Source of the DNA: a virus | Direction: 5' to 3' (one strand) | DNA: 26,465 nucleotides | IMG/VR virus record: IMGVR_UViG_3300033273_000182 | Span: 1-26,465 of that record | Shown: positions 1,156 through 1,663 of the stretch, in pieces | Layout: each line of letters starts with the position of its first letter | Position numbering within the stretch: position 1 is the stretch's first letter | The notes under the pieces: generated by a model | Databases searched by the model: none | Seen by the model: the letters and a program-made list of their open reading frames with translations, nothing else | What the model was told of the DNA's origin: nothing | Program-made: the position numbers and the translations under genes

Positions 1156-1663
1156 ATTGCTTGAGGGAACGTTTGCAAATAAACTGCAAGCACAATCTCA
1201 TCCTACTCGTTATGCACATATTAGAGTAAGTCATCGCAAGGTCTCTGATAATCGTTTCTATGGAGAACAGGCATATAATTATCAACTAAATATGCCATAC
1301 CGACAATTTGTAATTGAAGTTGTCGCAGAAAAGGGACAGTTTCGTCTAAAGAATTACGAAATTGAAGGTGCCAACAAATTCACTGGATGTAAAAATCTAG
1401 AAGAAATTACAGATGACATCTTGACATACAGAGAAGGATGTGATATTATTATGACTCAGACAGGTCACGATAAGTACGAGGGTGGAACCTCTACCTGTAA
1501 TTGTTGGGTGTATCGTCAAGGCATTAAAACTTATGTTCAAAACAGAGTTGTCTTGACTCGTGATACTTATGAAGTCGAAGACAAAGGACTTCATGCAGAA
1601 ACCAAACAAAAAGTTTGGGGTTCTGATTACGGAGCATTCAAATTTGTCCGTATGCCACTCTAG
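1139..1663 (+). CDS. cpeT: CpeT/CpcT-type phycobiliprotein lyase-like protein
   Basis: A 174-residue protein with the family pattern of T-type bilin lyases. The N-terminus has FLELLEGTFANKLQA and a YAHIRV strand, then RFYGEQAYNY and PYRQFVIEV. A GC-D segment sits near residues 99-101 (GCDIIM), followed by the threonine/cysteine strand GGTSTCNCWVYRQGIKTYV and the C-terminal QKVWGSDYGAFKF. Host CpeT/CpcT proteins attach phycoerythrobilin or phycocyanobilin to phycobiliprotein beta subunits in the cytoplasm; phage copies are auxiliary metabolic genes whose enzymatic activity is debated. The ATG at 1139 has GGAG upstream and overlaps the previous gene by 17 nt. The last residues (M-P-L) are encoded with the acceptor stem of tRNA-Thr, and the TAG stop at 1661-1663 is part of that tRNA. 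Confidence 0.9.
   Translation: MNQFLELLEGTFANKLQAQSHPTRYAHIRVSHRKVSDNRFYGEQAYNYQLNMPYRQFVIEVVAEKGQFRLKNYEIEGANKFTGCKNLEEITDDILTYREGCDIIMTQTGHDKYEGGTSTCNCWVYRQGIKTYVQNRVVLTRDTYEVEDKGLHAETKQKVWGSDYGAFKFVRMPL

Follow-up and report, generated by a model that had tools for sequence, protein, structure and literature searches.

Bacteria and phages transcribe protein genes together with tRNAs in polycistronic mRNA-tRNA transcripts that are processed by RNase P. The stop codon of the protein gene usually lies before the tRNA in such transcripts, whereas the stop codon of the cyanophage cpeT gene considered here lies inside the tRNA. Overlapping phage gene ends share with this locus an economy of bases at gene borders, visible also where an upstream frame, ORF871, runs into the start of cpeT, but the partner at the 3' end of cpeT is a structured RNA, and its conserved core bases are the stop codon. 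Mitochondrial tRNA punctuation offers a further likeness, in that an upstream message adjoins the tRNA that is cut out, and TAG stops are annotated as extending into that tRNA. Rodent nad1/trnI and nad2/trnW are annotated with overlaps of coding sequence and tRNA (PMC4624183, PMC6847864). In mitochondria the overlap is 1-2 nt, and a terminal U or UA becomes UAA through polyadenylation, whereas the cpeT overlap spans 10 nt. Completion of the cpeT stop by poly(A) is excluded: the cleaved remnant would end ...CGU AU, and an added A would give AUA. Since poly(A) cannot restore the stop, normal termination needs the uncut transcript, and the cpeT junction resembles mitochondrial punctuation only in the shared cut site. 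A search of the literature, limited to open-licence text, found no discussion of the cpeT/tRNA overlap.

The window, meaning the whole stretch of DNA analysed, is 26,465 nt of a virus record (IMGVR_UViG_3300033273_000182). The features that bear on the junction all lie on the + strand near its start:

474-602, + strand: ORF of 42 aa (phrog_3309, E = 6e-16), with its TAG at 600-602 on T8-A9-G10 of tRNA-Met
593-665, + strand: tRNA-Met(CAU), by Rfam coordinates (592-667 by ARAGORN)
835-842, + strand: T4-late-like motif TGTAAATA (NNTAAATA), upstream of the ORF871-cpeT pair
871-1155, + strand: ORF871, 94 aa (phrog_4134), overlapping the start of cpeT by 17 nt
1139-1663, + strand: cpeT (CpeT/CpcT phycobiliprotein lyase-like), 174 aa, TAG stop at 1661-1663 (ORF list, Pfam PF06206)
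1421-1449, + strand: candidate sigma-70 promoter inside cpeT, TTGACA-17-TATTAT with TG before the -10, pointing at the tRNAs
1654-1663, + strand: 10-nt overlap, acceptor 5' strand GCCACTC plus T8-A9-G10, read by cpeT as (AT)G CCA CTC TAG
1654-1726, + strand: tRNA-Thr(UGU), lacking an encoded CCA (ARAGORN, Rfam RF00005 at 64.5 bits)
1673-1675, + strand: second in-frame TAG, in the D arm, four codons 3' of the first (TAG CTC AGC TGG TAG)
1780-1852, + strand: tRNA-Ala(UGC), next in the tRNA cluster (ARAGORN, Rfam)
1979-2051, + strand: tRNA-Asn(GUU), the final tRNA of the cluster (ARAGORN, Rfam)

Both partners of the overlap are well-formed members of their families. The cpeT product matches PF06206 over its full length (residues 4-171, profile positions 2-181 of 181, E = 8.7e-40, score 137 against a cutoff of 21) and is, by this match, a member of the CpeT/CpcT family, with bilin binding and lyase activity only predicted. 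The tRNA-Thr far exceeds the Rfam gathering score of 29, its RF00005 coordinates equal those of ARAGORN, its acceptor GCCACTC/GAGTGGC is paired at 7/7 positions, and the cloverleaf is kept in a fold with cpeT sequence attached. The 3' end of cpeT reads ...GTC CGT AT|G CCA CTC TAG, with the tRNA beginning after the bar, at 1654. The initial annotation, which took the cpeT TAG to be T8-A9-G10 of tRNA-Thr and saw no in-frame stop 5' of the tRNA, is borne out on both points by the sequence and the ORF list, and on the first by ARAGORN and Rfam as well. Its statement that the last three codons end within the acceptor strand holds for CCA and CTC, which lie there whole; of ATG, only the final base does. 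Sequencing error as the cause of the missing upstream stop is excluded, since the fused state recurs in 79 distinct cpeT sequences drawn from many assemblies. The TAG in the D arm is possibly a back-up stop for cpeT, and 32 of the 103 cpeT loci that end at tRNA nt 10 (described below) have a second in-frame TAG at the same spacing. The 17-nt overlap with ORF871 makes it likely that cpeT is translated from a transcript starting upstream. RNase P cleavage of such a transcript at 1653/1654 would leave cpeT stopless, as had been proposed, and the anatomy of the locus agrees. The 42-aa frame at 474-602 is the window's second predicted tRNA-borne stop; the corresponding phrog_3309 frame in phage S-H9-1 (L005) likewise ends on T8-A9-G10 of tRNA-Met.

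A single ORF ending at tRNA nt 10 is not beyond chance, because entering a tRNA in the right phase is enough to end any frame at that point. Comparison with other cyanophage cpeT loci, which the initial annotation had proposed as a check on whether a tRNA abuts the stop, has been made with loci from phage records and IMG/VR, each scored for the position of the cpeT stop relative to the next tRNA. The stop falls exactly at nt 10 in 103 of 184 scored loci (79 distinct cpeT sequences), and the tRNA species is Thr at 85 of these, Asp at 17 and Ile at 1. Six loci overlap the tRNA at another position, 32 have their own cpeT stop at most 15 nt before it, and the remainder stop farther off or have no tRNA. 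With 103 of 109 overlapping loci ending at nt 10 on three tRNA species, the ending is, across the cpeT family, beyond chance. On a CpeT tree built from the protein minus its C-terminal tail (a quick tree with recombination likely, so that counts of changes are rough), the nt-10 state changes about 24 times, supported branches forcing at least 14 of these changes, and among fused loci the tRNA switches species 12 times with the stop position unchanged. As reconstructed from these sequences, the junction is kept and rebuilt many times in marine cyanophage cpeT. The same 10-nt overlap is annotated in the GenBank records of S-RSM4, S-WAM2, S-CAM4, S-CAM1, Sf-CH1b and Sf-FR1. ARAGORN also places tRNAs 3' of cpeT in ACG-2014e, ACG-2014j and ACG-2014i (L008, L009 and L011, respectively) that are unannotated in the public records.

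The residues encoded by the overlap follow the tRNA. Fused CpeT C-termini are mostly -M-P-x with tRNA-Thr and -M-G-L/M with tRNA-Asp; unfused C-termini are -R-Q, -K-K-E-T-S-Q and others. The 13 distinct acceptor pairs found among the fused Thr and Asp tRNAs checked vary widely in sequence, and every one is paired at 7/7 positions. Given that acceptor pairing is kept while the coded tail varies, the overlap evolves as tRNA, and the protein tolerates whatever tail it is given.

Several natural experiments indicate that the tRNA's TAG is the working stop of cpeT. Some of the adjacent tRNAs have no stop triplet at positions 8-10 (tRNA-Leu with TGG, one tRNA-Asp with TGG, some tRNA-Thr with AAG), and 13 of the 14 cpeT genes next to them end before the tRNA, the other within its first 8 nt; where the triplet is present, cpeT overlaps in 108 cases and has its own stop in 22. 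Locus L213 shares its CpeT core with ACG-2014j, its tRNA-Asp has T-G-G at 8-10, and a TAA stands directly 5' of the tRNA. Three loci, L017, L736 and L738, read TC|G CCA TCA TAA and so retain nine bases from the start of the tRNA-Thr of L733/L734, its TAG having become TAA; ARAGORN finds no tRNA in any of the three, and Rfam likewise finds none in L017 and L736. These loci stand to L733/L734 as fossils, a relation to which that of L222 to its sister L219 has been likened, and a search for a tmRNA or tRNA in the tRNA-less fossil cpeT loci found none. The reverse step is represented by L188, L194 and L195, which are nested in a clade whose members have their own stop and read CAA CC|G CCA TCA TAG; they represent a re-fusion, in which cpeT lost its own stop and that of the tRNA took over. 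The retention of a stop whenever the tRNA changes suggests that termination is selected, not nonstop rescue. L164, L154 and L713 carry a phage tRNA-Thr with A-A-G in place of U8-A9-G10 (GCCCTATAAGCATTG...), an odd tRNA core.

A promoter inside cpeT, which the initial annotation had named as a result that would speak against its reading, has a strong candidate at 1421-1449, although its identification is a sequence inference. The site has 11 of 12 hexamer matches at a spacing of 17, inside the 16-18 nt range of sigma-70 promoters, a pattern expected 0.07 times in the window, and it is synonymously conserved. Among 88 distinct sequences, the Leu95 codon that lies in the -35 is TTG in 92% (lowest codon entropy of 9 six-fold columns), the Asp102 codon, from which the -10 takes its T, is GAT in 99% (lowest of 34 two-fold columns), and the Thr96 codon is ACA in 82% (fourth of 22 four-fold columns). 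Of the 164 loci that have a tRNA in the 700 nt downstream, 137 carry the internal site, against 4 of the 18 that have none there. The 27 tRNA-bearing loci that lack the site are mostly divergent and include a divergent group of fused loci; on independent pairs, the association of promoter and tRNA gives 2-3 contrasts in the same direction and 0 in the opposite one, which is not significant by a sign test. This conserved promoter-like sequence could make the tRNA separately from cpeT. Between 400 and 2900 the window holds 13 sigma-70-like sites against 6.0 expected. Besides the one in cpeT, strong sites at 2288-2316 and 2542-2570 lie within a 2OG oxygenase gene, 5' of a giant tail-fibre ORF. 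A possible promoter at 917-945 in ORF871 was rejected: a TTGACA-type site occurs there in 36 of 126 loci, and no special conservation was seen.

Upstream of the ORF871-cpeT pair, a different class of promoter is suggested. The late promoter motif of cyanophages is NATAAATA (PMC2984593), from which the window's TGTAAATA at 835-842 differs by one mismatch. Among 132 distinct upstream regions, 114 have a TAAATA core some 290-304 nt 5' of cpeT, and the background is 6%.

The junction is shared by other phage genes. A general survey of 438 viral loci, picked solely by tRNA motifs and holding 1,989 tRNAs, found 56 called ORFs that end inside a tRNA, most commonly at nt 10 (21 ORFs). The nt-10 phase holds 31 of the 56 against an expected one third (p = 6e-4, assuming independence and with some ORFs of uncertain reality). 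The modal distance from stop to tRNA in the survey is 5-6 nt, before the tRNA. In a bacterial control, 5 overlaps were found at 259 tRNAs, 1 of them at nt 10 and with no Pfam match, against the viral 21 at 1,989 tRNAs; with a Fisher p of 0.5 and a bacterial sample too small for the comparison, no difference between phages and bacteria in nt-10 endings is claimed. Looser gene calling put 13 of 36 viral and 4 of 11 bacterial endings at nt 10, about one third of each, and several of these ORFs, being spurious translations of tRNAs, have been discarded.

Genes with family support that end at tRNA nt 10 encode 2OG oxygenases, nucleases of the HNH and GIY-YIG types, a redoxin and a SpoU methylase. 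An HNH-like gene of L204, preceded by TATAAATA, sits between cpeT and tRNA-Thr and ends on the TAG of the tRNA, and cpeT has its own stop upstream of the inserted gene. L154 is arranged similarly, also with TATAAATA before the HNH gene, which ends at nt 9. HNH-like or GIY-YIG genes that lie flush with tRNAs and end at nt 9-10 are seen at L154:3049-3456, L204:3052-3393, L007:2302-2610 and L287:1193-1708 and in L038, L086 and L102; the HNH calls for L204, L007, L086 and one in L038 were made by eye, with no Pfam match. Genes for 2OG-Fe(II) oxygenases near cpeT end on a tRNA TAG at L148:2905-3522, L166:3016-3618, L014:2108-2791 and L016:2016-2567, the last recorded as DNA endonuclease V and matching 2OG-FeII_Oxy_5 in Pfam. 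In L172, L189, L191, L199 and L207, ORFs of about 163 aa end TA|G, overlapping nt 1 of tRNA-Met or tRNA-Leu by one base.

The tRNA-borne stop is likely a tolerated economy and not a dedicated switch, with cpeT and the tRNA probably made from different promoters. The overlap may carry a cost or have a regulatory use. The regulatory reading holds that ribosomes finishing cpeT and RNase P meet at the same ten bases and so set the balance of CpeT and tRNA-Thr. The overlap does make CpeT and the tRNA mutually exclusive products of any one transcript, the junction persists across lineages, and a ribosome halted at nt 8-10 would be expected to cover the acceptor strand and D arm. Bacterial RNase P prefers U at -1 (PMC10731613), and U(-1) stands at 91 of the 103 fused junctions but at only 6 of the 32 nearby junctions that are unfused, which suggests a good RNase P site and a cut that is probably not suppressed. 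Such a balance is nonetheless unlikely to be what the junction is for, as the candidate internal promoter would uncouple the two genes and give tRNA that consumes no cpeT message, the same clades hold close relatives with unfused junctions, and the coded tail is not conserved. The occurrence of the junction in unrelated genes and with other tRNAs argues further that it is not a lyase-specific device. The fuller form of this reading, in which termination and tRNA maturation compete at the ten-base site and the junction is rebuilt for the link it makes between tRNA supply and the timing of an antenna protein, is likewise improbable; were it true, tRNA would come early from the cpeT promoter and CpeT late, when ribosomes shield the tRNA from RNase P. 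The overlap showed no further sign of regulation, and the built-in switch between lyase production and tRNA supply put forward in the initial annotation gained no positive evidence.

The same annotation had suggested a hijack of host tmRNA rescue, in which the nonstop remnant would be made on purpose, for tagged CpeT or to load the rescue system. Marine picocyanobacteria have a two-piece tmRNA (PMC1242208), and any RNase P cut would be expected to give a nonstop remnant, but the stop is kept at the same place after loss of the tRNA and tRNAs that lack a stop triplet are matched by earlier cpeT stops. These patterns, with no positive evidence on the other side, make a hijack very improbable. 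Inheritance of a single ancient fusion, its junction unselected and lost at random, is disfavoured and seems rather unlikely. AT|G is common to 84 of the 103 fused loci, and label changes on the CpeT tree are fewer than when labels are shuffled, both of which fit descent from one event. Against it, the re-fused L188, L194 and L195 have CC|G in place of AT|G, some other junctions read TC|G or AC|G, tRNAs for Thr, Asp and Ile have been swapped repeatedly, and the fossil loci retain their stops.

Under the preferred reading of a tolerated economy, the stop codon of cpeT would be supplied by the highly conserved U8-A9-G10 of the abutting tRNA. A gene fused to a tRNA in this phase would be closed after two extra codons with the tRNA undisturbed, which may be why the junction survives swaps of tRNA and gene and insertions at a variable locus. 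Full-length CpeT would come from the uncut transcript starting upstream, probably late in infection, and the tRNAs partly from the promoter-like site in cpeT, probably early, and partly from the long transcript through RNase P processing. Every cut of this kind would leave a nonstop cpeT remnant, presumably cleared by host tmRNA as ordinary waste. In its simplest form, the model that we infer has ORF871, cpeT and the tRNAs transcribed late from upstream and the tRNAs early from within cpeT.

For annotation, the rule for phage genes beside tRNAs would be to keep the full ORF and keep the tRNA. The junction also offers a clean natural setting, one where the bases that ribosomes need are those that RNase P needs too. 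More broadly, highly conserved tRNA bases serve phage genes as a portable stop codon as well, a use to which evolution has put them repeatedly and that helps to explain how genes such as those for HNH nucleases and 2OG oxygenases can lie flush against tRNAs.
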